Origin: a virus
Virus record (IMG/VR): IMGVR_UViG_3300042691_015855
Location: 1 to 30,600 of that record
Strand: one strand, 5' to 3'
DNA: 30,600 nt
In this document: positions 6,425 through 30,600 of the stretch, one piece after another
Numbering within the stretch: position 1 is the stretch's first letter
Layout of the letters: each line of letters opens with the position of its first letter
Notes under the pieces: generated by a model
Told to the model about the DNA's origin: nothing
Databases searched by the model: none
The model's input: the letters and a program-made list of their open reading frames with translations, nothing else
Made by a program: the position numbers and the translations under genes

Positions 6425-6858
6425 GAAATCCCAAGAGAATTCCTATTATCATTAAATTCTTTAAAGAAAATCCTTATGAATTGGATAAATTTTTAGGAGA
6501 AGAAGTTGCTAACGAAGAAACCATTATACTACTAAAACAATATTGGAAAACAGTTCCTGATCAAAGAATGGGGCAATTATTAGTAAATTTAGGGATGAAT
6601 ATTAAACCAAGTTGTTGGATTAAAGAAGAAGTGGATTGGTTAATTGAACATGGTTATTTTAAATTTGAAGAACTACATTTTTGGGGTACTAATTTCTATA
6701 AAAATGGAAAAAGAAAACCTAAAACAGTTTATAAACTATTAAAGGATTTAGATTTAGACCATATTGAGAATATAATTAAATTTAATAAAGAAAGAGGTCA
6801 ACAAATTGATCAAAGGTATTTAAAATACTTTTATAAAAGAATACAAGAAAATATATGA
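6421..6858 (+). CDS. Conserved phage protein of unknown function upstream of ribonucleotide reductase
   Basis: The product has 145 residues. The N-terminus MRNPKRIPIIIKFF and the later stretch YWKTVPDQRMGQLLVNLGM recall a small family of phage and bacterial proteins that begin with 'R-[DN]-P-x-R-I' and carry 'W...PD.R..QL..N'; this is from memory and not verified. The C-terminal half is helical and very basic (Lys/Arg near residues 95-145). It is joined on both sides by ATGA overlaps, to the 53-residue protein and to the reductase, so it may be made in step with the reductase. No catalytic motif is visible. Confidence 0.65.
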   Translation: MRNPKRIPIIIKFFKENPYELDKFLGEEVANEETIILLKQYWKTVPDQRMGQLLVNLGMNIKPSCWIKEEVDWLIEHGYFKFEELHFWGTNFYKNGKRKPKTVYKLLKDLDLDHIENIIKFNKERGQQIDQRYLKYFYKRIQENI

Positions 6859-8119
6859 ATATAGGATTGCAAGTATTAAGTGATGTGGTAACATTTAATA
6901 AATATGCTAAATACATACCACAAATTAAAAGAAGAGAAACTTACGATGAAATTATTTTAAGATATTTACAAATGATGGTAGATAAATACCCTGATTTGGC
7001 AAGTAATATTATGAGAAATGGTCAGTATATTTTTGATAAGAAAGTTTTACCTTCAATGAGAGGTTTACAATTTGCTGGAATGGCTATTCAAAAGAATGAA
7101 GCTAGAATATATAATTGTTGCTATGCTCCTGTAGATGACTATAGGGTATTTGGAGAAATAATGTTCCTTCTATTAGGAGGTACAGGTGTAGGATATAGTG
7201 TTCAAAATAAGCATGTTGAAAAACTACCTGAAATTAAAGTTCCAACTAAAGAGCAAAAGTTCTTAATTGGAGATAGTATTGAAGGTTGGGCTGATGCAGT
7301 TAAACATTTAATGGGGAGTTACCTAGGCTATAGGAACACTCTTCCAAGATTTGATTTTAGTGATATTAGACAAAAGGGAGTTAGGTTAATTACTGCTGGT
7401 GGTAAAGCTCCGGGGCCTGAACCTTTGAGAAAATGTTTATTTGAAATACAAACTATTTTAAGTAGAAAATCTAATGGAGATAGGTTAACTGATATTGAGG
7501 TTCATGATATTATTTGTCATATAGCTGATGCAGTATTAGCTGGAGGTATTAGGAGAGCAGCTTTAATTTGCTTATTCTCTGCTGATAGTGAGGCTATGTT
7601 ATCTTGTAAATTTGGTAACTGGTGGGAACTTAACCCTCAACGTGGTAGAGCTAACAACTCTGCTGTTCTTGTAAGACATAAAATTACTAAAGAGTTTTTC
7701 TTAGATCTATGGAAGAAAATTGAATTAAGTGGAAGCGGTGAACCTGGTTTCTATTTTACCAATAATCCTGATTGGGGCACTAATCCTTGTGTAGAAATAG
7801 CTTTAAGACCTTTCCAATTTTGTAATCTTTGTGAGGTAAATGTTTCTAATGTTGAATCTCAAGAAGATTTAAATAATAGAGTTAGAGTAGCAACTTTCTT
7901 TGGTACTTTGCAAGCTTCATTTACAGATTTTCATTATCTACGTCCTATTTGGAAAAAGACTACAGAAAAAGATGCATTAGTTGGTATTGGTATGACAGGT
8001 ATTGCTAGTATGGAAGTATTTAAATATAACCTTACAGAAGCAGCTAATGTTGCTTTCTTAGAAAATATTGAAGTAGCTCAGACTTTAGGAATTAATAGAG
8101 CAGCTAGGATTACTTGCGT
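6855..8119 (+). CDS. nrdJ: Class II (adenosylcobalamin-dependent) ribonucleotide reductase, exon 1
   Basis: This exon encodes residues 1-421 plus two bases of codon 422. The enzyme reduces ribonucleotides to deoxyribonucleotides. The class II active site is recognisable: the NPCVEI loop puts C312 and E314 two apart and C323 eleven after C312, the same spacing as C408, E410 and C419 in the Lactobacillus leichmannii enzyme. C88 or C89 (ARIYNCC) is the likely partner cysteine. GGTGVGYSV (108-116), AGGIRRAAL (229-237) and NWWELNPQRGRANNS (255-269) are further family segments. Read straight through, the frame would stop at 8139-8141 in intron sequence. The natural end is the splice site after T8119, which rejoins ITCV to KPSGTTS. 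Spliced length 641 residues, versus 739 in L. leichmannii. Confidence 0.9.
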
Positions 8120-8907
8120 AGATTTTTGCGCCTTTAATTAGAGATAATTATCGAAAAATTTCCTTAATTGCTGGAAACTCCTAATTTTTTATTATATTTG
8201 TATAATAAAAGATGGACAATCAGCAGCCAAGCCTACAGTCTGTAGGAAGGTTCAACGACTATCCCGTAAGGGAGTACACTCAAGTGAGTGGAAACAGGAA
8301 ACATCTGAAAAAGATGGTGATATAGTCTAATCTTTATAGTAATATAAAGTAGTTTATGTATAAATTGTATAAAATAGTTAATTTGAAAAATAATAAAGTG
8401 TATATAGGTATGACAAAAAATTCTTTAGAAAAAAGATTTTACCAACATTGTTTTATATCTAAAACAAGAAATACTTCTTTATACAATTCTATGAAAAAAC
8501 ATGGAATTGAAAATTTTAAAATTGAATTATTAAATACCTATAATAATAAAAAAGATTGTTGTAAAGCTGAAATTGAAAATATTTTATTAAATAAAAATAA
8601 TTCTTATAATTTAGCAAAAGGTGGTGAAGGTGGTTTTGTAGTAAATAATATTGAAGATTGGAAATCTAAATTGTCAGAAAAAAGACAAGGTAGAAAACCT
8701 TCTTTAGGTATGAATCATTCAGAATCAAATAAACAATTATTTTCAAAAATATCTAAACAATATTGGTTAGAAAATAAAATTTACAACAACGAAGAAATAT
8801 TAAAATTAAGTTTTAAAGAAGCAAAATTAAAATTTAATATTAGTAAAACACATTATTATAGAATACATAGACAGTTCAGAATTAACGCTTCTGAATGAAT
8901 ATAAATG
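8120..8907 (+). mobile_element. Group I self-splicing intron (IA-like) in the ribonucleotide reductase gene
   Basis: The 788-nt intron follows a U (8119) and ends with G (8907), as group I introns do. P1: exon GCGU at 8116-8119 pairs with GCGC at 8128-8131, with a U-G pair at the splice site. P10: TTTTT at 8123-8127 can pair with exon-2 AAAA. P2: TAATTA / GAGA / TAATTA (8135-8150). P3 candidate: AGATG 8210-8214 with CATCT 8302-8306. A core hairpin CCTACA-gtc-TGTAGG lies at 8232-8246. The conserved GGTTCAACGACTAT at 8249-8262 gives P7, GACTAT pairing with ATAGTC at 8322-8327. P9: CTTTATA-GTAA-TATAAAG (8332-8349). The core motifs resemble the T4 td-type IA introns. The endonuclease gene lies after P9. 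Splicing restores a perfect reductase motif. Confidence 0.92.
8356..8898 (+). CDS. Intron-encoded GIY-YIG homing endonuclease
   Basis: The product has 180 residues. The GIY-YIG nuclease domain is at the N-terminus: YKIVN (3-8), KVYIGMT (13-20), then KRFYQH with the catalytic Arg, and an invariant Glu later (about residue 72, in KAEIENILL), followed by NLAKGGEGG. Residues 85-135 include RQGRKPSLGMNHSE, a NUMOD3-like minor-groove-binding motif, and the C-terminus (KEAKLKFNISKTHYYRIHR) looks like a helix-turn-helix, the I-TevI style of modular DNA recognition. It would cut intron-less reductase alleles so that the intron is copied in. The start lies 6 bases after P9 and the stop 9 bases before the 3' splice site. 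Confidence 0.92.
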   Translation: MYKLYKIVNLKNNKVYIGMTKNSLEKRFYQHCFISKTRNTSLYNSMKKHGIENFKIELLNTYNNKKDCCKAEIENILLNKNNSYNLAKGGEGGFVVNNIEDWKSKLSEKRQGRKPSLGMNHSESNKQLFSKISKQYWLENKIYNNEEILKLSFKEAKLKFNISKTHYYRIHRQFRINASE

Positions 8908-9568
8908 AAAACCAAGTGGTACTACAAGCTGTGTATTAGGTACTTCATCAGGAGTTCATGCTTGGCATAATGACTATTATATTAGGAGAATGCAGATGAC
9001 TAAGTCTGAAGATTTGTATAAATATTTAGCTTATAATCATCCGGAATTAGTTAAAGATCATTTACTTCTCCCTAATTCTGCAGTAGTAGAAATTCCTATT
9101 AAAGCACCTGAAGGTTCTGTATTAAGAACTGAAACTGCTATTGATACTTTAGAAAGAGTTAAAAAACTATCTCAAGAATGGATTCAACCTGGTCATATTC
9201 ATGGAGATAATTCTCACAATGTTAGTGCTACTATTTCTATTGATAAAAATAGAACTTATATGGCATTTGATATGAATGATGGAAAAGGTACTCAATATTC
9301 TCAAATTGAGAATGGTTATTTAGATGAATGGCAAGTAGTTGGAGAATGGATGTGGCAAAATAAAAAACATTATAATGGTTTAAGTGTATTACCATTTGAT
9401 GGTGGTAGTTATTCCCAAGCTCCATTTGAAGATATTACTGAAGCTCAGTACAATGAATTAATTAAAAACATTACTTCAATTGATTTAAGTAGAATTGTTG
9501 AAGAAGATGATGTTACTACACTAGTTGATGAATTAGCTTGTGGTGCAGATGGTTGTGTAATTTTTTAA
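8908..9568 (+). CDS. nrdJ: Class II ribonucleotide reductase, exon 2
   Basis: This exon completes codon 422 and encodes the last 219 residues. It opens with KPSGTTSCVLGTSSGVHAW, a strongly conserved segment of class II reductases, and continues YYIRR. The middle holds an alpha/beta part of the barrel and the C-terminus is CGADGCVIF, whose two cysteines (four residues between) would serve as the shuttle pair that re-reduces the active site. There is no native start at the exon junction: an internal ATG at 8990 opens the same frame but would miss the KPSGT motif, so translation depends on splicing. The next gene begins 6 bases after the stop. Confidence 0.9.
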
Positions 9569-17382: not shown

Positions 17383-17400
17383 CCCCTATTGGGGTTATTT
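17377..17400. terminator. Bidirectional terminator shared by the convergent gene blocks
   Basis: A 10-bp stem (AAATAACCCC at 17377-17386, GGGGTTATTT at 17391-17400) with a TATT loop has T-rich 3' ends when read from either strand. It includes the TAA stop of the + strand gene (17380-17382) and the TAA stop of the - strand giant gene (17395-17397 on the + strand). One hairpin therefore serves both directions. Confidence 0.85.
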
Positions 17401-20400
17401 AGTTGTCATTTTCATATACTTAATTGCATTTTCAGGATCTGAGTTAACTCCATTATATCCCCAAAACTTTAAAAACTTGGCCCATAATTTACTATCTCCT
17501 TTTTCCCAAATACCACTATCTCTTTTATAAACTGCAAAAGGATCTGTCATTTGAGTTAAAAGAGAAGATAATCTATCTAATACAGAAAATACTGGAATTG
17601 GATTTTTAACAGTTTTATAAACTTCTTTTACAGAAGGCATACCTAAGAAATTTTGAGGATCTCCAAATGTTCCATAAATACCTAATTCACTATTAATCCT
17701 CATTGATAAATACAATAAATGTTTTAATTTAGCTTTCTCATCATCATCTCCAGCTTCCATTAAACTATTTAAAATAATAATAAACATACCACTAGCTGCA
17801 ACAATTAATAATTCTCTTCTAGCTCTTCTTAAATTTTGTTTTTCTGCAGGGCTATAATACCCATTATCAACTCCGGCTATAAATCTACTTAGTTGTTTAA
17901 CATCAGTTGCTAAATGTTTATAAAAAGTTATCCAATATCCTTCAGTTATAACTCCTAATTCTTGATCAATACCTTTAGACTTATACCTTTTCTTAATTCC
18001 TGGAAGTAAGAATTTTTTATACATGGTTAGTAATTTACCTGCTGAATATCTTTCAATTTGAATTTTATCCTGGGAATTATATATACCATGCATTCTTTTA
18101 TTCAACCCATGTAATGTAGATTGTATATCTCTTGAAATAAGTCCATTTTCTGAAGGTGCTTGAATGTTTACCCCCTCTTTTAGCTTTATTTCGCCAGTTG
18201 TTTTATCTAATGTATATGCATCAAATAAAGTAATAACTTCTCCTTTATTAGTAGTTACTTTAGTATCTAATAACATAGCTATCATAGTTCTAACTTGAAT
18301 AGCATGTTCCCCTTGCTGTTGCATAAAAAACCAAGTATCAGTATTAAATAACTTTTTAAAAGCAGTTTTAGAAATATTTCTTCCTGCAGAATCTTTATAC
18401 TCTCCTTGCATAGGATCATATAAATCTACTAGCTGACCTAACAAACTTTTAGAGTAAGGAGAATTAAAATCTTTAATAAAGTTTGTAATATTACCATCAT
18501 AAATAGCTCTTGATTTTAACCAGGCTGTATCTGAAAAAAATTGTTTAGCAGCAGACTCCATTAGAGCTTGTATGTTAGCTTGTAAATAATTGGCCACACT
18601 ACCTATAGGATTACCACCTACTTGTGTCACAGAAGCAAAACTCATTAATCCTCCAATTAGTTTATCTACTGGAACCCCTAAAACTTTTTGATCAGTTTTT
18701 ATATCTAATTTTCCATAGATTTGATTATCTATGTGCATAGCTAATAATGAAGCTATGTTATTACCTCCTAGTTTTTTCTTGTATTTTAAGAATTCATCTT
18801 TAACTCCAGCTTTTTCAACTAAGGCATCTACATATTTATTGCCAGCATCATCTGTTTTATAAGGAGCATTCTTAGTTACATTTTCTAAAAGCATTTCTCC
18901 AACATTAGCCATTTTAGATTTAACTTCATATTCTAAAGATTCAGCTTCATACATAACTATAGACTGTATTAAGTCCAAAGAAACATCATCAGCTTTCATG
19001 TTAAAGTTAAATATCATAGGAATGGTTTTACCATCTTCCCCATACTTACTAACTTCTTCATCTTTAAAAGAAATTAATTCACTTCCTACATATTTTAAAT
19101 GGTTAACTAATCCTTTATCAGTAACACTATCCCAACCTGATTTCTTAATAGATGGAAGAATATAACCCATTTTATGAGGTAATCTTTCCTGAGATTTAAA
19201 ATAAGAAGCTACTAAAAATTTATAGTATTCAAATTTAGGAGATGCTTTTAATTGCTCATATTTATCATTCTTAAATTTAGTAGGGTTGAGCATTAAAAAT
19301 TCTTTATCATAAGTAGTTCCAGTTTCACTAGTATAACCATTTGATTTATTAATAAAATTAGTTAAATCATTCTGAGATATAACACCTTCTTCTACAAGCT
19401 TTTGTTTTTCTTTAATTAAAGTGTCTATACTTTTCTGTAAAACAATTCTCTCTTGTGTAACAGGGTTAATTACAACTACATCTTCAGACTGAGGTATTCT
19501 AACAAAGTTATCTTTATAAAAGTTTCTCCATAATGATTTTTCATCAGCTACATTATCTGCTAAATTTAATCTCTTATAGTGGTTAGCTTTAACCTGATTG
19601 TATTTATTATAATCTATTTCAGATACAAAAGACATACTCTCACTAAATACTGGAGAACCTTGGTCATCTAACTTTTCAAAAACATTAACTTTTTCATACA
19701 ACCCTTGATTGTAATCAGAAGGATTATCTTTATTTCCAAAAGAAGTTTTTTCAAAAGCTGCTCCAGCTTCTCTTTCAAATTTAACTAGTTTTTGTCTAGC
19801 ATCTTCCATTTTATCTTTTAATACTCTATCAAAAGAAGAAATTAATTCATTAGAACTACTAGCAGCAGGAGTAAACCAAGTATCTAACCAAGCTATATCT
19901 TCTGAACTTCCATATTTTAAACTTTTTATTAAAACATCTCTTGTAATCCCCTTCTCAGATTTTAATTTTTTAACATCAAACTCATACTGTTTAGTTAGTT
20001 TTTCTTTTATTTTAGGATTAGTAGTTTTGTCAATTCTTTCTTTCTGAAAAACTAAAGTTTTTTCTACTTCTGCATTAGCAGTTTTAGACACACCTTGTAA
20101 TAAAAAATCAGCTAATAAATCAACACTTTGATTTTGATAAGTTTTATTGATAATAGAAACTCCTTTTTGAATTTCTTCAAGCTTTGAAAACATCTCTGAT
20201 TTCAAATCTTTATCAGAGTTAGAATCTAATATAAATCTTAGGTCATCTAATATAGGGGAGTATAAATCATTTATAGTTTTAATGTATAAAAGTTTATCAA
20301 TAGCTTGAGCTTGAGTCAACTCTCCATTAACTATTTTATTATTTAATAAAACAATTTGTGCAGGTAATCCAAGGACAGATATTTTTTTATCTACTCTTGT

Positions 20401-23400
20401 TATTAATTTATTAGTAAACTGGTAATGTAAAGCGTTAACAAATTCTGTCAATTTTTTAATAGGTTCAGCTTGATTTAAAGTTTCTAATACTTCTTTAGTT
20501 TGTAATAAAGCAGCTTGTTTACTTGCAGTATCTGGAAGTTTATTAACACTCTTTAATCTTTTATGTAAAATGATTTTAATATTATTTATCAAAGTAACTT
20601 GTTGATCATTATATGTGTTATCTAAACCAGTAGGCTTTGATGGAGCATCATAAAACTGATCTACTATATATGAATAAGCATTTACAGGAACTTCATCTTC
20701 AACATAAGCTTCTTCTAAAACATCTTTTTGATTAGGTAAATAAACCGGTAATACACCTAAATCATCTTTTTCAAATACTAACCCATTGGTCAATGCTAAT
20801 CCTTTATAAATAGATAACTGAGCTGCATGAGTTTGTTTTTTAGAAGCACTTCCATAAGTTTTCATGTAATCAAAAGAAGTAGTAGAGTATTTAGTAGATT
20901 TTAAATCTAAGATTTTAACTTTACCTTCTGGAGATATTAACAAAAGATCTAATGTTCCTGCAATCTTGTTATTACTATCACCTAATATAACTTGAGGAAT
21001 GATTAAATAATTTTTATATTTATCAAGTGACTTTTTTAATTCATCATAAGTTTTACTAAGAGTTTCTTCATTTACTACAACTTCTTCAGCATTATCTTTA
21101 TCAACTCTAATTTTATGAGCTTCAAGAACATTCTGCACAGCAGAAGATTTATCTACACCATTAACTAATTCTTGTAATAAATCATCAAATTGATTACCAA
21201 ATTCTCTAGCTTTTCCACCTAAATCTACATCTCCAAAGTATTCAAAGTAAGCTTGTTCTCCATTAGGGCCAGCTAATTTCTTTAAAAAACTAGTAGCTCT
21301 TTGATATTTTTGTCCATTAACAGGAGATATATATTCATTTTCTGTACTACCTAACTTTTGCCATTTACTTATTTTATTAATAACATCTATTTGATTAGCT
21401 GTAATATTATTACCTGTATTAGCAGCATAATTAGAAATAGCCATAGTTAATGAAGTATTAAATCCTACGTTATTACTAAATTCAGGAGTTGATGGAGCAA
21501 CTTCATTAGGATCTATGTATTGTTCTAAGTGTATATTACTTAAATCTAGTGTAGTATCAGGGTCTAAAACAAATAAAGCTATATCTTTTAAAGATAGTTC
21601 CATTATTTGTTTATCTGACATATTTTTTAAATCAGGAATTAAAAAACTTTTAATATAGTTACAAACTTGTTTCCAAAATCTAGTAGCTATGTTACTTTTT
21701 TGAGGAAGGTCTTCTAAGATAGTAATAGATTCATTTTCTATTTCTGTAGTAATAACTTCTCTCCAACCTCTTTCAGTTAGTTTTCCATTAGAATATAATT
21801 CACTAGTGTATTTTTTAGTTATTAATTCATTGATTAAACTTTCTTCAGTTCTTTTTTTCAATATATCAGCTTTAAACTGTTTAAAAGATAAAGGCTTAGT
21901 TTTATATAACCATTCAACTAAAGGGTGTGTAAACTCATGTAATGCTGAATTAAAGGAACTTTTATTAGTTCCTAGTATAACTATGTTGTCTTTAGGATCA
22001 TAAGCTCCTGAAGCTTTTTTAGAAAGATTATCATTGAATTCATTTTCACTTAAAATTTTAAAGTTTACTCCAAATTTTTTAAAGAATCTTTGAGCATAAA
22101 AAGTTAAGTCAGCTTTAGATAATGGAACTGCATTATTGTTATTACTAAATTCTACAGGTTGTTTAACAAACTCTTTAAACCCATTTATATCTTGTTTAGA
22201 ACCTAATATGTGAATTTGTTCTGGTTCTTTTACTGCTACCCAATTTATTGCAGGAGTATCGCTAAAAGCTTCTACACCTCTTTCTTTAGCACTTTTTTGA
22301 TTTATTATAAGAGAATCGTTTTCTACAAGATTAATTTGTTTTAGATTTCCAAATTTACTTAGTTCTAAACTATTACTTTCTATAGGTGTTTGAGAGTTTA
22401 TAACAGCAGCTACTTCAAATTTTGTTTTACCACCTTCATCTAAATTTGAACCAAAAACTGTAATATCTTTTTTTAATTTAGAAAAATAAATAGCCATATT
22501 ATAACCTAATTCTTTACTAAATCTTTTAATAAAATTATCAATTTTATTATCGGTTTGATGATAAACAATATCTTTTACTTTACTATCAGGAAATATACTA
22601 TCAAGATATTGAGAGTATAGTTGTAAAGCTTGTTGTTTTTGTTCAATGAATTTTTCTAAAACTGCTATTTTTTGTTTTGATTTAGTTATAGCATTTTCTT
22701 TTTCAGAAGCTTCTCCAAACCCACCCTCAAATTGTCCAGTAGAAGGATTAAATCCTTTAGGTAATCCTGTTTTTTCATCAATGCCTGTTTCTCTAATTGG
22801 TGTGGTTTCTTCTTCTAAAAGTCTTTTTTTATAACCTAATAAAATTTTATTTAAATCTAATTTAGATTCATTTATTCCAGATATGAGTAATTTCCAAGAA
22901 CTTTCTGAATATCCGTAGGGTATAGTTTCTCCTTTATATTTATTATATAATTCAGTACCTCTTACTAAATCAAATAAAGGATTTCTTAACTGTTCAATTA
23001 ACTGTTCTTTTTCTTGATTAGAAAAATTATTAAATCCTAAAGCTTCATATACTTCATTAGCTAACTCAGGATTAGAATCAAATAGTTCTTCTACTCCTGG
23101 TTTAATATTATTTGATTCAGATATAGATTTTGAACTTGCTAGTTTACTATCATCAGCAACATTGCTTACATTATAAAACATGAAACTATTAGTCTGAATT
23201 ATTTTATTTAATTTTTCAGCAGTAGATACATTAAATTTTTCAGTTTTATATTTGGCTTCTTTATTAAATAATTGTAAAACAGAATTAATAAATTTTTGCC
23301 ATAATGTAAGTTCAGTTTGAACTTCTTCTTTTATACCTTCTAATAATTTTTTAAAATCTGGATTAGAAAAAGCTTCTGATAAAAATTCATGTTCATCTTT

Positions 23401-24564
23401 TAAACCATATACAGATCCTTCTTTACCTTGTTGATATGATAACTTTGTTTTATCCTTTACTTGATTTAATAAACTATTTATATTTCTTTTAAAATTAGCA
23501 TCATAGTTAACAGCTAAATGAGTAACTCCATGTATTAATTCATGAGCTAATAATTGAAAAGCTCCTCTATCTATTCTAAGATTCTCTTCATAAATATAAA
23601 TAGAATTAGTGTTAGGTTGATACCAAGCTGCTGTATTTTCTTGAGAAAATTCTTTATTAGAAAAAACTACCACTTTTATATTAGTAGCATTTTTAACAGC
23701 ATCTTGAATAATAGGATTATCAATAAGTTCTGTAGCATACTTTAGTATGTCAGTTGATCCATCATTATAAAATTCTTTAACTATAACAGGTTTAATTCCT
23801 CTATCATTTGCTTCTCTTTTATCTCTAATACTTTGCTCAACTTTTTTAGTAATAATTTCTTGTCTATTTTCTTCTGAAATTTCTGATATTTTAGAAGTTA
23901 ATTTATAAAAACCTTTTACAAATCTTTTAGGAAATTTAAAAGTTTTACCATCAGGCATTTGAAAAATAAAAGTTTCAGATTTACTATTATTTAATTCTTT
24001 TTTAACTTGATCAAAAACAGTTGAAGTAAATCCAAATGAAAATATTTTATCAAAATTATCTCTTACAGAACTTTCTACAATATCATTTTGATTTTCTAGT
24101 ATTTCATAAAAGTTAGGGTAAACTCTACTTTCTCCTATAAACATTATATGTTCAGGATAGATACCTTTTTGATTCATTATTTGTGATAATGATGGATCTC
24201 TATCTCTTGAAAAACCACCAAAGAAAGCAAAATCTTTTTTAGTAGTATCATACTGTATAGAATCAAAAGTAATATCTTCTATACTTTTAACATTTGATCC
24301 TGTAGCTTTATTAAATAACATTAAAGCTAAATCATCATCTTTTAATAATGAACTATCAAAATTACCACTATTACTATTTGAAAATATTTGTACACTAGAA
24401 TTTAAAACCTCTTTAACTCCTGGGTCTATTGATAGACTAGTATCATACGATGTTGCATCTGGAATTTGATTATTATTTTTCCAATACTCTTTCCAAGCTT
24501 GCTGTTCCCCTATTTTAGCTGTTAAAGCTTTCCATTCAGGACTATTTATATTAGGACATGTCAT
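17395..24564 (-). CDS. Giant polyvalent virion protein: zincin-like peptidases, ADP-ribosyltransferase-like and PD-(D/E)XK domains
   Basis: The product has 2389 residues. Domains in order: an N-terminal segment with NINSPEWKALTAKIGEQQAW, an opening seen in phage giant proteins; a first zincin with HELIHGVTH (341-349) and a downstream EHEFLSEAF (391-399) supplying a possible third zinc ligand; an ADP-ribosyltransferase-like region with VYHQTD (H669), AIYFS (Y693) and EPEQIHILG (E780, E782); a second zincin-like motif HEFTH (876-880); a PD-(D/E)XK nuclease motif with D1206, then ILDLKST (D1220, K1222); long charged helical stretches; and a hydrophobic segment near residues 2250-2268 (ELLIVAASGMFIIIL). 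Such multi-domain 'polyvalent' proteins are injected with phage DNA. It starts one base after the polymerase stop. Confidence 0.75.
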   Translation of the reverse strand: MTCPNINSPEWKALTAKIGEQQAWKEYWKNNNQIPDATSYDTSLSIDPGVKEVLNSSVQIFSNSNSGNFDSSLLKDDDLALMLFNKATGSNVKSIEDITFDSIQYDTTKKDFAFFGGFSRDRDPSLSQIMNQKGIYPEHIMFIGESRVYPNFYEILENQNDIVESSVRDNFDKIFSFGFTSTVFDQVKKELNNSKSETFIFQMPDGKTFKFPKRFVKGFYKLTSKISEISEENRQEIITKKVEQSIRDKREANDRGIKPVIVKEFYNDGSTDILKYATELIDNPIIQDAVKNATNIKVVVFSNKEFSQENTAAWYQPNTNSIYIYEENLRIDRGAFQLLAHELIHGVTHLAVNYDANFKRNINSLLNQVKDKTKLSYQQGKEGSVYGLKDEHEFLSEAFSNPDFKKLLEGIKEEVQTELTLWQKFINSVLQLFNKEAKYKTEKFNVSTAEKLNKIIQTNSFMFYNVSNVADDSKLASSKSISESNNIKPGVEELFDSNPELANEVYEALGFNNFSNQEKEQLIEQLRNPLFDLVRGTELYNKYKGETIPYGYSESSWKLLISGINESKLDLNKILLGYKKRLLEEETTPIRETGIDEKTGLPKGFNPSTGQFEGGFGEASEKENAITKSKQKIAVLEKFIEQKQQALQLYSQYLDSIFPDSKVKDIVYHQTDNKIDNFIKRFSKELGYNMAIYFSKLKKDITVFGSNLDEGGKTKFEVAAVINSQTPIESNSLELSKFGNLKQINLVENDSLIINQKSAKERGVEAFSDTPAINWVAVKEPEQIHILGSKQDINGFKEFVKQPVEFSNNNNAVPLSKADLTFYAQRFFKKFGVNFKILSENEFNDNLSKKASGAYDPKDNIVILGTNKSSFNSALHEFTHPLVEWLYKTKPLSFKQFKADILKKRTEESLINELITKKYTSELYSNGKLTERGWREVITTEIENESITILEDLPQKSNIATRFWKQVCNYIKSFLIPDLKNMSDKQIMELSLKDIALFVLDPDTTLDLSNIHLEQYIDPNEVAPSTPEFSNNVGFNTSLTMAISNYAANTGNNITANQIDVINKISKWQKLGSTENEYISPVNGQKYQRATSFLKKLAGPNGEQAYFEYFGDVDLGGKAREFGNQFDDLLQELVNGVDKSSAVQNVLEAHKIRVDKDNAEEVVVNEETLSKTYDELKKSLDKYKNYLIIPQVILGDSNNKIAGTLDLLLISPEGKVKILDLKSTKYSTTSFDYMKTYGSASKKQTHAAQLSIYKGLALTNGLVFEKDDLGVLPVYLPNQKDVLEEAYVEDEVPVNAYSYIVDQFYDAPSKPTGLDNTYNDQQVTLINNIKIILHKRLKSVNKLPDTASKQAALLQTKEVLETLNQAEPIKKLTEFVNALHYQFTNKLITRVDKKISVLGLPAQIVLLNNKIVNGELTQAQAIDKLLYIKTINDLYSPILDDLRFILDSNSDKDLKSEMFSKLEEIQKGVSIINKTYQNQSVDLLADFLLQGVSKTANAEVEKTLVFQKERIDKTTNPKIKEKLTKQYEFDVKKLKSEKGITRDVLIKSLKYGSSEDIAWLDTWFTPAASSSNELISSFDRVLKDKMEDARQKLVKFEREAGAAFEKTSFGNKDNPSDYNQGLYEKVNVFEKLDDQGSPVFSESMSFVSEIDYNKYNQVKANHYKRLNLADNVADEKSLWRNFYKDNFVRIPQSEDVVVINPVTQERIVLQKSIDTLIKEKQKLVEEGVISQNDLTNFINKSNGYTSETGTTYDKEFLMLNPTKFKNDKYEQLKASPKFEYYKFLVASYFKSQERLPHKMGYILPSIKKSGWDSVTDKGLVNHLKYVGSELISFKDEEVSKYGEDGKTIPMIFNFNMKADDVSLDLIQSIVMYEAESLEYEVKSKMANVGEMLLENVTKNAPYKTDDAGNKYVDALVEKAGVKDEFLKYKKKLGGNNIASLLAMHIDNQIYGKLDIKTDQKVLGVPVDKLIGGLMSFASVTQVGGNPIGSVANYLQANIQALMESAAKQFFSDTAWLKSRAIYDGNITNFIKDFNSPYSKSLLGQLVDLYDPMQGEYKDSAGRNISKTAFKKLFNTDTWFFMQQQGEHAIQVRTMIAMLLDTKVTTNKGEVITLFDAYTLDKTTGEIKLKEGVNIQAPSENGLISRDIQSTLHGLNKRMHGIYNSQDKIQIERYSAGKLLTMYKKFLLPGIKKRYKSKGIDQELGVITEGYWITFYKHLATDVKQLSRFIAGVDNGYYSPAEKQNLRRARRELLIVAASGMFIIILNSLMEAGDDDEKAKLKHLLYLSMRINSELGIYGTFGDPQNFLGMPSVKEVYKTVKNPIPVFSVLDRLSSLLTQMTDPFAVYKRDSGIWEKGDSKLWAKFLKFWGYNGVNSDPENAIKYMKMTTK

Positions 24565-24565
24565 A

Positions 24566-27500
24566 TTATTTACAAAGGTTTTTAAGTTCTTCTAATGAAG
24601 TATTTTCAAATTGAGTTACAAAGTTAATTAAAATTTTAACATCCTTTATATTTTTTTCAGTAAAACCTGCAGGACTAGCCAACATTTCCTTAAACTCATT
24701 CTTTAAATCTTGATATTCTTCAGCACTATTTTCTTTTAAATCTAAAAGCTTTTTAACCATATTTTTTTGAGGATCTTTTTTAAAGTCATCAACTTTCTTT
24801 AAAGGTACTCCAACAAAATTAATAAAAGCTTCTACCAACTCATTGTTTATATTAAAAGTTGAAGTAGTAACAATTGGTGTTGGTGTTTTATTCATCAATG
24901 TAGTTATTAATTTATCATACTTAGGATAAATAACATCATCATAAATAGCTTTATCAGCTAAAGATAATTTACTTTCATCAACTTTACCATCAGCTTTAAA
25001 TTGAGCATTAGGTATTTTAGCCTTTATCTCTTGTCTTTCTAAATCTCTTAATCTTTCTATTTCAGCTTTTATTTGTTCAATAGTTTGTGGTGTAGTTTTA
25101 TTATCTACAACAATAGGAGTTGTTAACGGCTTAGTGTAAAATTCTTCATTCTCTTTAACAGGGAAGAAATAAGGTACAAATCCTTTGTTACCATAAGGGA
25201 ATATTTCTTCATACTTAGCTTCCCAACCTATTAATGGATTTTCTTTTGTGGCCCCAACAACCTTAACTAATTTGTAATATCTTTTAACATTTTTACCTTG
25301 TACAGATTCATTTATCCCTAAGTACTCTAAGAATTGAATTCTCTTTTTAAATTCACCGTCTTTCTGAATATAGATTTCATTAACTAACCCAGTTGATAAT
25401 AAAGATTCTATGTAGATTTTAGTTAAAGCTTTCCTAGAACTTTCAGTTTTAGAAAGGTCATTAAATAAACCTGGGGTAATTTTAAAAGTTAACTTGCTTT
25501 TGTCTTCATTAAAAATGATTGGAGATAAACCTTTAAAATCTGTTGCAGATAAATATTCTTCTGAAGATACAAATTCACCAGAAGTTTTTTTATCTTTTAG
25601 ATTAGAAACTTTTGCATCAATGTTTTCAATAGCTTTTAATAAAGCTTGTACATTGTACCCCTCTTCACTTTTATTTTTTAAATTTTCTAAATAAGAAGTT
25701 AGTTTCTTTTTAATATTACTGTTAATGAATTCTAATTTATTACTTCTAATACTAAAGATGTTGTTAGAATCTCTTATAAATAACTCTGTAAATTCTTTTT
25801 CAAATTCTTGTAAAGACATCCCTAAAACTTCTTCATAACTATTATCTCTAATAGCATCCTGAACTTTAAACAACATTGCAGAGAAGTTATTAAAGAAGAA
25901 TGGTTCTGTAAATGGAAGAACTGTTTCATTAACAAATAACCCTGCATCTTTAATATAGATTTGATTAATTAAGAATCCAACCATTATCTGAGATTTTAAT
26001 GTAAGATCTTTATTTACACTTCCATCTTCATTTAAAACAGGAGCAAAAAATAAATTATACATATCATCAGCTATTTGCTTTTGAAGATTAGGTGTTAGTT
26101 TTATAAATGAATCTATAGATAAGTAGTGTACTACTTTATCTTTCATAGCTGTACCAGGTTTACCTACAATAGTTTTAGGGGATAATTTACTTAACAAAAA
26201 GTTATCACCCATTAAACCTGAAGCTTTAAGTTCATTGAAAGCTCTAATAAATTGTGGTAATACATCTTCAGAAGATGTTACATAACTATTTATTGATGGA
26301 GTTATTTTATTTAATACTTGATTGTTTTTTCTTAAAGCTCTAAATCCTAAAGTATTAGTAATGAGGTAAGTCATTCTTTTAATATTAGCTTCTTTATTAA
26401 AGCTAAGTTTAAAGTTCTTTAATACATTAGACATTATATCTAATACAGGTTTTGTAGAAGCTATTAAAAACAATCCAGAATCTTCAGTTATAATTTTGTA
26501 TGCTTTTAAAATTTCTTCTTTTAAGAATCTATCTTTATTAATAATTTCTAAAAAGTCAATAGGATGTTTATCAGGATTTTTTTCTTTGTTGTAAATGTAA
26601 GAAGCTGTATTACTTAATGTGTAATCCGGATTAACTTGTATTCCTATTTTCTCTAAAGCATTTAGTGTATTTAAATTTTCAGAGGTAGATGGTTTAGTTC
26701 CTTTAATGAAAGATAATAACTGAGTAAAATTAATAGTATAGTTATTAACTTGTAGTAAAGGTATTAAATGATATAAAACAGCATTTTCAAATTCAGTTTC
26801 TGCATTACCATCTTGCAAACTCTTAATCTTTTCTACTACTTGATCAATAGTATATTCAGTATATAACTTTTCAGGTTTAGCAGGTAAATAACTTTTGATT
26901 AATTCTTCTATACTAACATTACCATCTTCTTTTTGAGATTCTTTTTTAGTTTTAAAAGGGTCTTTTAATAATTCTATGGCCCCTAATAATTCTTTTACTT
27001 TAGGAGTTAACCCAATCATAAGCTGATGCTCAGGTGTATATAGAGCAGGTCTTTTAATAATAGTGTCAATAATTAAAGCACCTTGCATAGTAGAAGTAAT
27101 GTTAAATCTACCAGCATCCTGATGTTTCATGTTATCAACTGCTAATGATAACCACAAAGTTAAAACTTCGTTTATAGATTGTTTGTTATCCCAGAAATAA
27201 TTATTAACTTCTCCTACATTAAATATTTTAGCCCCATACTGCATAAAGTATTGCCCCATGATATTTCCTAAAGCTGCAATACCAATATTCTCTCCACCTT
27301 TAGCATTAGCTATAGATGTTTTAACTCTACTAGCTAGAGAAAAATAATGAGGTATATTAACATTGTCTTTTATACCTGCAGGTTCTAATACATCTTTAAT
27401 AAAGTTTTCAACCCTAGTTCTTTCAGCATCTCTCTCAGAAGCAGCAGCATTACCTGTATTGTGTATTAACACTTTCTTTAACTCTAACATTAGATTAGAA

Positions 27501-30500
27501 GTTTCAGGAGTTGTTAAAGGAGAGTAGTTTAATAAATTACCATTGTTATAATTTGTATAATTACTTTTAACTTGCTTTCCTAAATTTGCTGTAAACTCTT
27601 CTAAGGTAGTATAATATTTATTTTGCCTTAAAGCAGCTTCAAATAATTTTTTTCTAAGTTCTTTTATATCAGCAGCTGTTTTAATTTTACTTTCTAAATT
27701 ACCTTGTATTAATTCAGAATATTCATCAAAGTTATTTGCTAACCAAGTAACAAATTTTTGTTGAGTAAAATTAGAATCATCAATTGTATTATCAAATAAA
27801 GCTAAACTTTCTGGAGATAATCTAGCTAAGACTTTTCTAGCATCTTCATAGTTAGAAGCTGACAATACTTTTAAAGAATATTCATTGTATTCTAATTTAG
27901 CTAATAAATCATTATAAGCTTCATCTAGTTTTAACAATCTATCAAAATCAGCTTTAACTCCTTTAGAAGTTTTATAGAATTCTATGTATTCTTTAAATGC
28001 TTCTTCAATAGCTTTATCTTCTTCAACATTTAAGTAATTACCATAAGCAGTTTCATTCTCCCCATAAGTTTCTAACCCATGAGCAAACAAACTATCAATA
28101 TCAAAATCGGCTCCGGAGAATGCTCTAATATCATTAGGGACAATAGCTGTGTTTCCAGTTTCAACAGGAAGGAAATCTACTATCCTCATGTACACCATAG
28201 AAGATTTTTCCTGAGTTGGAATACGTTGAGCTGCATACTCTAGGAATTTTTTATCTTTTACTAGAACTTCACTACCAATAGAAAGTCCATATTGTTTAGC
28301 TGTCTGTGGAGATATTACACATTCTGCATAATAACAATTTTTTATTGGATCAAATTTAACTTCTAAGTCCCTAGATGAAACTGGTACTTTACCATTCTTT
28401 GCTTCATTAGAAGTAATGATGTTATTGTTTTCATCTAACTGAACTTCATAAGCATAGTCTGTCATTAATGTAAACTTTTGTCCAGCTACTTTGTGAGAAA
28501 GTGTTTGCCCTAAGTAAGAGTATAACATTTTTTCAACTTTGTTTAAGCTCCTAGATAAGTTTAAATTAAACTTAGGCATATCTAAGTTTTCAGTTGCAGA
28601 TAACAACTCTTGCAAAATAGGGTCATCCCCCATTTGTTCTATACTATCTTTAAATGATTTTAATAAAGCTTTATACTTAGGAAGATCTCCTTGTTTATAA
28701 GTTTTACTTAATTCATCATAAGTTTGTTTTATTCTATATTCTTTAGTTTTCTTAAAGATATTAACAATATCCCCTACAGTAAACTCTCTTCCATCAATAG
28801 TAACTTTTGTTGCAGAATCTTGTTCACTATCTATTAACTGAAGAAGCTGAGTTCCATCTACAATTCTGTTTTTCATGTTATCAGTGATAACCTGCTCTCT
28901 AATAAATAAATCAGAAATCTCATAACCATCTAAAGAAGGATCATCTCCTTGTACTTTCTCTAAAGATTGAGAGTTGTAAATAACAGTTTTAACAGCAGAA
29001 GCATGTAAAGTAATCCCTGTACCATTTAATTCCATTTTATTTAAAAGGGTATGTAATCTTTTAAATTGAGGAACAGGTTCATATAAACCAACAAGTTCTT
29101 TAACAATAGCATTATATCCTTCTTCATCAGTAGAATCATATAACATGTTTACTAAAGTATTTACCCTAACTTTGTTTTCCTCTTTTACATAGGAAACCAT
29201 GTTTCTATTTAAATTTTTAACAGATGTCTTTCCATATAAAGCATAAGAGAAAATAGAAATCTTTCTTGGGTTATCCAAGGCTCCGTATTCTTCTAGTATA
29301 TCCTTATCTCTTTCAGAGAGAGGAATACATTTTCTCATTTTCTTATAAATGTTTTTTACAACATCATTAAATTTACCATTACTCCTTAAGTATTTATTTT
29401 CATACCAAGATTGTGTACAGTAACTTTGGGCATCTGTAGATTCACCAGCCTTAGATTTTCCTCTAGCTGTTTTTTCAAAGTCATCAATAATTGAAATTCT
29501 AGTTTTACCATAACCTAATGAATTTCCAGAAGCATTTAATCCAGCCATCCTCTTAGGAAGATCTAATCTATCTTTGAAGTTTAACCCTACATCACCAACC
29601 ATTAAATTTAAAACTGAATAAGAATTGATAAAATCATTTAAAATAAAGTTTTGTAAATATCTAAGGTTTAATTTACCATCGTCATACTGAAAGTTCTTAG
29701 GGAGAAGGTTATTTGTATATTTACCTTCCTCTTGTTTAGTTACTAATCCAATTTCAGGATCACTTAAAAGATCTAACATCTCTTGAGTTAAATTCTCAAT
29801 CAAAGCCTTTGTTAAATCATTAACATCAGATTGTTGTAAAGATTCTTTATTAACAATTAACTCATATAAACTATCTGCATTTACTCCACCAATATTTGCA
29901 ATTTTAAATTCTCTTGGAAGATTCCTTGTTTTTAAAATATTAATTAATGCTTCATTATTATTTGAATCTAAAGCATCTATAATTTCTTGCTTAACATCTT
30001 TGTTAATAGTGTTAAATTTATTGATGGCTTTTTTATCATTCCTAATTTCATTTAAAGCTTTTTTAACTCTAAGAAAATCTTGATTAATAATGTTGAACAT
30101 ATTTTCTTTTAGTTCATCAGTATAACCTTCTTCGTTAGTTATGTAAGTTGCTTTAGGAAGCATAAAAGCATACTGAGTACTTTTACCCTCATTCTGAAAA
30201 GGTATAAATAAAGCATAACCTGGTTTAGCAATAGAATTTAAAACACCTTTTGCTTTATCAGTTTCATATAAATAAAAGTAATTTAAGAATTTACCTCTTG
30301 GAGATAATGACTGGAAAGATTTTCCATCATCATTACTTAGATAAGTTATCTCAGCAAAATCATTATCTGTTTGAATAACCCTACTACCATCTAATATATA
30401 AGGAGTTAGGTTACCTATATGTTTTAAAGCCAAAGGATCATTTAACAAAGGGTTTTGTTTTAAAGCATCAAAGTAATATCTTTCTAAAGTTTCATTGGAA

Positions 30501-30600
30501 GATAAATCATTTTCTTTTAAGTAAGCTTGGAAAGCTTCAAAGTTATTATCTTGCAAAGCTTCTAAGAATTTCTCAGGAGAACTTTTAATAGTGTTTAATA
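24566..30600 (-). CDS. Virion RNA polymerase of crAss-like phages (partial, N-terminus outside window)
   Basis: 2010 residues are visible and the frame is open to the window edge. The TTG at 30554-30556 is not the start, because in-frame codons continue upstream (PEKFLEAL before it). The catalytic signature DFDID (visible residues 831-835, bases 28094-28108, in AFSGADFDIDSLFAHG) matches the metal-binding DxDxD of the crAss-like phage RNA polymerase, which unites two double-psi beta-barrels in one chain, like the eukaryotic RNA-silencing polymerases. HKVAGQKF about 125 residues upstream (K703, K708) fits the lysines of the other barrel. In phage phi14:2 this protein is carried in the virion and transcribes early genes. 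The rest is helical with no other recognised domain. Confidence 0.85.
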   Translation of the reverse strand, partial: LNTIKSSPEKFLEALQDNNFEAFQAYLKENDLSSNETLERYYFDALKQNPLLNDPLALKHIGNLTPYILDGSRVIQTDNDFAEITYLSNDDGKSFQSLSPRGKFLNYFYLYETDKAKGVLNSIAKPGYALFIPFQNEGKSTQYAFMLPKATYITNEEGYTDELKENMFNIINQDFLRVKKALNEIRNDKKAINKFNTINKDVKQEIIDALDSNNNEALINILKTRNLPREFKIANIGGVNADSLYELIVNKESLQQSDVNDLTKALIENLTQEMLDLLSDPEIGLVTKQEEGKYTNNLLPKNFQYDDGKLNLRYLQNFILNDFINSYSVLNLMVGDVGLNFKDRLDLPKRMAGLNASGNSLGYGKTRISIIDDFEKTARGKSKAGESTDAQSYCTQSWYENKYLRSNGKFNDVVKNIYKKMRKCIPLSERDKDILEEYGALDNPRKISIFSYALYGKTSVKNLNRNMVSYVKEENKVRVNTLVNMLYDSTDEEGYNAIVKELVGLYEPVPQFKRLHTLLNKMELNGTGITLHASAVKTVIYNSQSLEKVQGDDPSLDGYEISDLFIREQVITDNMKNRIVDGTQLLQLIDSEQDSATKVTIDGREFTVGDIVNIFKKTKEYRIKQTYDELSKTYKQGDLPKYKALLKSFKDSIEQMGDDPILQELLSATENLDMPKFNLNLSRSLNKVEKMLYSYLGQTLSHKVAGQKFTLMTDYAYEVQLDENNNIITSNEAKNGKVPVSSRDLEVKFDPIKNCYYAECVISPQTAKQYGLSIGSEVLVKDKKFLEYAAQRIPTQEKSSMVYMRIVDFLPVETGNTAIVPNDIRAFSGADFDIDSLFAHGLETYGENETAYGNYLNVEEDKAIEEAFKEYIEFYKTSKGVKADFDRLLKLDEAYNDLLAKLEYNEYSLKVLSASNYEDARKVLARLSPESLALFDNTIDDSNFTQQKFVTWLANNFDEYSELIQGNLESKIKTAADIKELRKKLFEAALRQNKYYTTLEEFTANLGKQVKSNYTNYNNGNLLNYSPLTTPETSNLMLELKKVLIHNTGNAAASERDAERTRVENFIKDVLEPAGIKDNVNIPHYFSLASRVKTSIANAKGGENIGIAALGNIMGQYFMQYGAKIFNVGEVNNYFWDNKQSINEVLTLWLSLAVDNMKHQDAGRFNITSTMQGALIIDTIIKRPALYTPEHQLMIGLTPKVKELLGAIELLKDPFKTKKESQKEDGNVSIEELIKSYLPAKPEKLYTEYTIDQVVEKIKSLQDGNAETEFENAVLYHLIPLLQVNNYTINFTQLLSFIKGTKPSTSENLNTLNALEKIGIQVNPDYTLSNTASYIYNKEKNPDKHPIDFLEIINKDRFLKEEILKAYKIITEDSGLFLIASTKPVLDIMSNVLKNFKLSFNKEANIKRMTYLITNTLGFRALRKNNQVLNKITPSINSYVTSSEDVLPQFIRAFNELKASGLMGDNFLLSKLSPKTIVGKPGTAMKDKVVHYLSIDSFIKLTPNLQKQIADDMYNLFFAPVLNEDGSVNKDLTLKSQIMVGFLINQIYIKDAGLFVNETVLPFTEPFFFNNFSAMLFKVQDAIRDNSYEEVLGMSLQEFEKEFTELFIRDSNNIFSIRSNKLEFINSNIKKKLTSYLENLKNKSEEGYNVQALLKAIENIDAKVSNLKDKKTSGEFVSSEEYLSATDFKGLSPIIFNEDKSKLTFKITPGLFNDLSKTESSRKALTKIYIESLLSTGLVNEIYIQKDGEFKKRIQFLEYLGINESVQGKNVKRYYKLVKVVGATKENPLIGWEAKYEEIFPYGNKGFVPYFFPVKENEEFYTKPLTTPIVVDNKTTPQTIEQIKAEIERLRDLERQEIKAKIPNAQFKADGKVDESKLSLADKAIYDDVIYPKYDKLITTLMNKTPTPIVTTSTFNINNELVEAFINFVGVPLKKVDDFKKDPQKNMVKKLLDLKENSAEEYQDLKNEFKEMLASPAGFTEKNIKDVKILINFVTQFENTSLEELKNLCK

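Follow-up and report, generated by a model that had tools for sequence, protein, structure and literature searches.

A crassvirus RNA-polymerase-associated cargo protein with an N-terminal stack of effector-type domains

Polyvalent proteins, as described by Iyer et al. in 2017 (PMC5512222), stack an MPTase and an ART-PolyVal domain in one phage protein and are encoded among virion or RNA polymerase (RNAP) genes; the main text of that paper makes no mention of crAss. Two further proteins, the phage T4 Alt, an injected ART (PMC5512222), and the N4 vRNAP gp50, whose C1 domain contains an HExxH motif (PMC12633501), are carried in the virion and ejected, and they resemble the protein considered here without shown homology. 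In crassviruses, gp49 of crAss001 was found in virions by mass spectrometry (PMC10172136), g065 of phi14:2 is annotated from MS/MS in its database record, and ejection of the cargo homologues through the tail has been proposed in papers. PDDEXK domains in crass transcription proteins have also been published already (PMC7886860). Our analysis considered P0001, a giant protein encoded in a 30.6-kb IMG/VR record that is referred to below, at its full length, as the window (Table 1).

The reading frame of P0001 is intact over 2389 aa of the minus strand. With a gap of 1 bp, it lies directly downstream of P0002, which carries DFDID (the DxDxD motif) at about 28094-28108, confirming the crAss RNA polymerase that a first-pass annotation had placed beside it. 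The residues named in that annotation (HELIH 341, HEFTH 876, H669, Y693, E780, E782, D1206, D1220 and K1222) were all found at their positions. When the P0001 sequence was shuffled 2000 times, HExxH appeared 0.01 times per shuffle on average and never twice.

Table 1 Features of P0001 and its neighbour, with window coordinates and the basis of each assignment.
Feature	Residues and details	Window coordinates	Strand	Basis
gp49/gp65-type RNAP-associated cargo protein P0001	2389 aa	17395..24564	(-)	
N-terminal cap	1-45, MTCPNINSPEWK...; C3 codon 24556-24558	24430..24564	(-)	Cap profile and alignment
764-aa segment missing from L001	43-806	22147..24438	(-)	Comparison with 87%-identical relative
Zincin 1	299-459, HELIH 341-345; candidate third ligand E393 or E397	23188..23670	(-)	Profile, AlphaFold
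ART-PolyVal-like domain (probable)	655-806, H669, Y693, D750	22147..22602	(-)	Pfam PF18760, BLAST
Zincin-like 2	806-1060, HEFTH 876-880	21385..22149	(-)	Profile; AlphaFold secondary-structure order
PD-(D/E)XK nuclease	1078-1297, D1206, D1220, K1222, Q1249, Y1253	20674..21333	(-)	Pfam PF12705
MID segment	1300-1560	19885..20667	(-)	Kept in minimal freshwater relatives
Conserved crassvirus cargo body	1561-2389	17398..19884	(-)	Homology
Crassvirus RNAP P0002	Open at window edge, 2010 residues seen	24566..30598	(-)	

By tblastn (down to 2e-31) and by profile, residues ~1560-2389 correspond to the protein annotated as 'RNA-polymerase subunit' in crAss-like phages, with matches in 74 phage records that include crAss001 gp49 and phi14:2 gp65. 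In the annotated phage records that we opened, the gp49-type gene is likewise found immediately downstream of the RNAP gene. Scanning IMG/VR with the cargo-body alignment yielded 79 further loci, and a single-protein scan of the same database with the cargo body alone gave no matches. By homology and gene order, P0001 is thus a crassvirus RNAP-associated cargo protein of the crAss001 gp49 / phi14:2 gp65 type, sharing with both the homologous C-terminal body, the place directly downstream of the RNAP and an N-terminal Cys. It differs from them in carrying four effector-type domains on 2389 aa, whereas gp49 has 1349 aa and neither zincin nor nuclease was detected in it, and gp65 has 1421 aa and a zincin as its only detected effector (Z1-body). 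As both homologues are virion proteins, the delivery with the virion that had been suggested for P0001 appears likely by analogy. Two contigs assigned to Methanoflexus and Bacilli MAGs (L097 and L098) also contain crass-like RNAP/gp49 regions; they may be mis-binned phage contigs.

The first zincin motif (HELIHGVTH) marks a real domain, as profile, AlphaFold model and structural neighbours agree. A profile from other phages only, with P0001 excluded, gave 94 bits (E 2.5e-27), and the residues invariant in four crassviruses include H341, E342, H345, E393 and E397. In the AlphaFold model of residues 270-815, pLDDT is 75-96 over most of the domain, which contains the HExxH helix, the downstream helix with a Glu and the small sheet by which a zincin is recognized. 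Its structural neighbours are gluzincin-type, with middling Z values (up to 7.7), and Foldseek with the model of residues 270-815 returned no significant match. The top structural row, N4 vRNAP 2448-2590 (VIA-align), was discounted, as this stretch lies in C2 and not in C1, and the N4 paper places the HExxH in 2124-2375. For the second motif, HEFTH, the motif itself stands, while the zincin-like fold is moderately supported: a clean profile gave 13.3 bits (E 0.03 at a database size of 10,000 proteins) and matched none of 168 shuffled or reversed controls, the order of secondary-structure elements in AlphaFold fits a zincin, and the structure comparison listed no zincin match for this domain. 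An E-value of 3e-10 was discarded, as the underlying profile may have contained zincin 2 itself.

The RecB/Cas4-type nuclease proposed earlier is likewise real. Pfam PDDEXK_1 (PF12705) matches above its cut-off, with E 1.4e-6 when the entire protein is searched and 4.4e-8 with the slice, and the five residues listed in Table 1 are invariant in nine homologues. They make up a D...DxK...QxxxY active site in a nuclease fold, with structural matches to AddAB/RecB/Cas4/MGME1 folds (Z 8-10.8).

The ART region matches Pfam ART-PolyVal (PF18760, Tox-ART-HYD2) with 21.8 bits (E 3.4e-4), which falls short of the 31.2-bit cut-off. With a profile made from seven other ARTs, the P0001 ART scored 22 bits, as compared to at most 10 for 200 shuffles; it should be noted that with an ART profile built without P0001, the full-length protein was missed under default filters and the slice was matched only with filters off. 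By BLAST, the region matches the stand-alone ART of another locus (L133), which itself scores 43.9 bits, over the Pfam cut-off. H, Y and D are the residues used in the ART-PolyVal family (PMC5512222), and H669, Y693 and D750 align with this family, loosely so near D750. Two residues of the H/Y/E trio in the first-pass annotation thus fit the family by alignment, and the third catalytic residue is likely D750 rather than E780/E782. In the AlphaFold model of residues 270-815, pLDDT of this region is mostly below 60 and no credible ART is seen, so that the match in sequence comes without confirmation of the fold. Residues 655-806 are probably an ART domain.

P0001 is therefore a phage protein that combines at least two catalytic domains unrelated to each other, zincin and nuclease being secure and the ART probable, and the polyvalent-type stack suggested earlier is supported. 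It differs from the polyvalent proteins of PMC5512222 in being built on a crassvirus RNAP cargo body, and a polyvalent effector stack on such a body is what is new in P0001; in our literature search, outside which the phi14:2 RNAP paper lies, no paper was found to describe an ART, a zincin or coupling by cysteines for crass cargo. The stack is hereby placed on a protein family with members known inside crassvirus virions. The domain combination is, however, not specific to this locus, since ART, zincin and nuclease also occur together in gut Suoliviridae. In the gp49-like proteins of cr1_1 and cr4_1, an ART, zincin 1 and a PD-(D/E)XK nuclease lie, in this order, N-terminal to the same body; these proteins have one zincin (ART-Z1-NUC), while P0001 has two (Z1-ART-Z2-NUC). 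By eye, a P-loop-like 'GHP(A/G)IGKTY' is common to the N-terminal parts of cr1_1 (L013:3312-9335) and of another gp49-like protein (L024, 5933-11617).

Called with profiles seeded from P0001 segments, the relatives form a series that starts at 1080 aa with no enzyme and has P0001 as its longest discrete form. About 35 members of a clade that we term freshwater (a working label for the clade, not the sample source) have 1080-1183 aa and consist of cap, MID and body only. Four relatives (L020-L023) have this minimal form plus the nuclease, the closest relative (L001) has cap, zincin 2, nuclease, MID and body, and P0001 has cap, zincin 1, ART, zincin 2, nuclease, MID and body. Close relatives thus show stacks growing and shrinking one domain at a time and, because many relatives have none of the stack enzymes, none of these would be essential to cargo function. 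L001 is 87% identical to P0001 over the shared part and lacks exactly residues 43-806, with zincin 1 and the ART, so that by this comparison the segment is a clean N-terminal insertion relative to L001. Its GC3 is 6.4%, as compared to 12.8% elsewhere in P0001, and when IMG/VR was scanned with residues 1-1221 as a single query, L001 was the sole match, so that no close relatives of the segment were found. Over the shared part, dN is about 0.06-0.14 and dS about 0.57-0.70, and every catalytic residue of Z2 and NUC is kept; judged against L001, these two domains are under purifying selection. In the cap alignment, C and E are invariant. We rejected the cap as a general packaging tag on many proteins, as it occurs in one copy per contig in 13 contigs, where it is carried by the gp49-like protein or, in L133, by the ART link. 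A crass-type gp49-like cargo protein was also present in a phage of a cyanobacterium, the Leptolyngbya phage Lbo-JY46 (L005, 3431-11677); this protein of 2748 aa carries an acetyltransferase domain at its N-terminus as well as two HExxH motifs.

Domains also vary on the other side of the boundary between the two genes. The last ~400-700 RNAP residues of relatives, just before gp49, carry an ART (L054 over the Pfam cut-off, L020 below it), NADAR (L001:7244-7696 and L042:5573-6772, both over the Pfam cut-off; the RNAP of the window is without it), a 2OG-Fe(II) oxygenase of AlkB type (L043, L048) or an SF1 helicase (L035), as well as weak matches to ASCH (L042) and DprA-like (L031) domains and HExxH motifs seen by eye (L023, L052, L059). 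Several of these enzymes, namely ART and NADAR, would act on ADP-ribose. In other loci, extra link genes stand between RNAP and gp49 (L057:5838-8183, L042:6777-8180 and L133:4130-5116). The first two have no Pfam match, and the third encodes the ART related to that of P0001 as a separate protein of 328 aa, which starts with the same cap, MICPNKNTPEWK. By these comparisons, the stretch from the RNAP C-terminus to the gp49 N-terminus is a hypervariable slot for effectors and, because the ART is separate in L133 and the domains in the slot vary, fusion into gp49 as in P0001 would be one solution of a wider habit. The seam would thus be a defined place where a phage group that ranks among the most abundant repeatedly swaps enzymes likely to serve host attack or counter-defence.

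The termini at these seams share a further property. Cysteine makes up only 0.14-0.16% of crassvirus cargo proteins, and yet it is found within residues 2-8 in 61 of 62 distinct gp49-like N-termini (the choice of start codon may explain the one without it) and within the last 10 residues in all 56 RNAP C-termini, whereas none of 60 gp49 C-termini has a terminal Cys. In gp47-like proteins, the N-terminus is free of cysteine, and a Cys, which in most of them is the sole one, lies at the very C-terminal end or a few positions short of it. In phi14:2 gp66 there are exactly two cysteines, at 3 and 2179 of 2180, and the freshwater-clade RNAPs show the same two-end pattern (e.g. 5 and 4070 of 4070). 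The links, too, have exactly two, one per end: 3 and 325 of 328 in the L133 ART, 3 and 468 in L042, 3 and 782 in L057. Where RNAP and gp49 are fused (L073, L085 and L089, with DFDID and body in one frame of >3700 aa), there is no cysteine over the ~3,770 aa seen, and where gp47 and RNAP are unsplit, a state called from length (L209, L212, cr1, cr4), the protein has no N-terminal Cys and the upstream gene no C-terminal one. The window fits this pattern, with Cys 2009 of 2010 in the RNAP and Cys 3 in P0001. As a control, an N-terminal Cys is seen in 9% and a C-terminal one in 8% of the other ORFs at these loci, and among 53 giant zincin proteins of other phages, two have an N-terminal and two a C-terminal Cys. 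These 53 proteins (giant ORFs of L099-L175) contain 0.01% cysteine overall, which suggests a general avoidance of cysteine in such proteins.

On its simplest reading, the pattern predicts that neighbours pair at each seam. We lean towards the view that the cargo is coupled head to tail via single terminal cysteines, in the order gp47-like, RNAP, optional link and gp49-like, with effectors added at the RNAP/gp49 seam. New effectors would join there either fused to one side, as the ART and zincins of P0001, or as links with two cysteines, as the L133 ART. The bonds would probably be disulfides that form in the virion and are reduced once inside the host; in crAss001 virions, disulfides are present in proteins of the tail and the vertex (PMC10172136), and our literature search did not find reports of cysteines or disulfides in crass cargo proteins. 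If true, the pattern would give a simple account of how giant proteins are stored and pushed in order through a narrow tail, and such a cysteine-coupled train would, once confirmed, be new in kind.

Taken together, we consider it likely that P0001 is the last member of the RNAP cargo set, enlarged at its N-terminus by an effector stack, and that it is packaged, ejected and acts early as a multi-enzyme effector. The stack would be flanked by two conserved parts, the N-terminal cap and the cargo body, P0001 would be packaged with the RNAP in the virion, as its homologues suggest, and ejection into the host would take place with or before the DNA. ART, nuclease and zincins would then be exposed in the cytoplasm early, near the start of viral transcription, where the ART may modify host macromolecules, the nuclease may cut DNA and the zincins may either cut proteins of the host or separate the domains from each other. 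The last point bears on an alternative that falls a little short of an even chance, in which the zincins mainly process the cargo itself, cutting between stacked domains after ejection and sparing host proteins. Iyer et al. propose such a role for the MPTase in polyvalent proteins (PMC5512222) and in P0001 the zincins flank the ART (Z1-ART-Z2); however, phi14:2 gp65 (Z1-body) has a zincin and no other detected effector to be freed.

The target of the nuclease can be questioned in a similar manner, and somewhat more tentatively one may suppose that it serves the handling of phage DNA in ejection, replication or packaging rather than an attack on host or rival DNA. Its nearest folds are the recombination exonucleases named above and crassviruses carry several PDDEXK nucleases whose role is unclear (PMC7886860; PMC10136315), although the ~35 minimal freshwater relatives do without a nuclease at that place. 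It is improbable, on the other hand, that the N-terminal stack was acquired recently and is for the most part non-functional, being tolerated by a cargo protein of large size. The clean insertion missing from L001, its lower GC3 and the change from HGT to HQT in the ART motif of P0001 would fit such an origin, but the 764-aa frame is uninterrupted, zincin 1 retains all residues invariant in its family, distant crassviruses carry these domains in the corresponding protein as well, and purifying selection on Z2 and NUC also argues against it.

Elsewhere in the window, a ribonucleotide reductase gene (6855-9568) is, by reading, split in two frames (6855-8141 and 8990-9568), and a GIY-YIG-like ORF (8356-8898) lies between them, as if by an intron.
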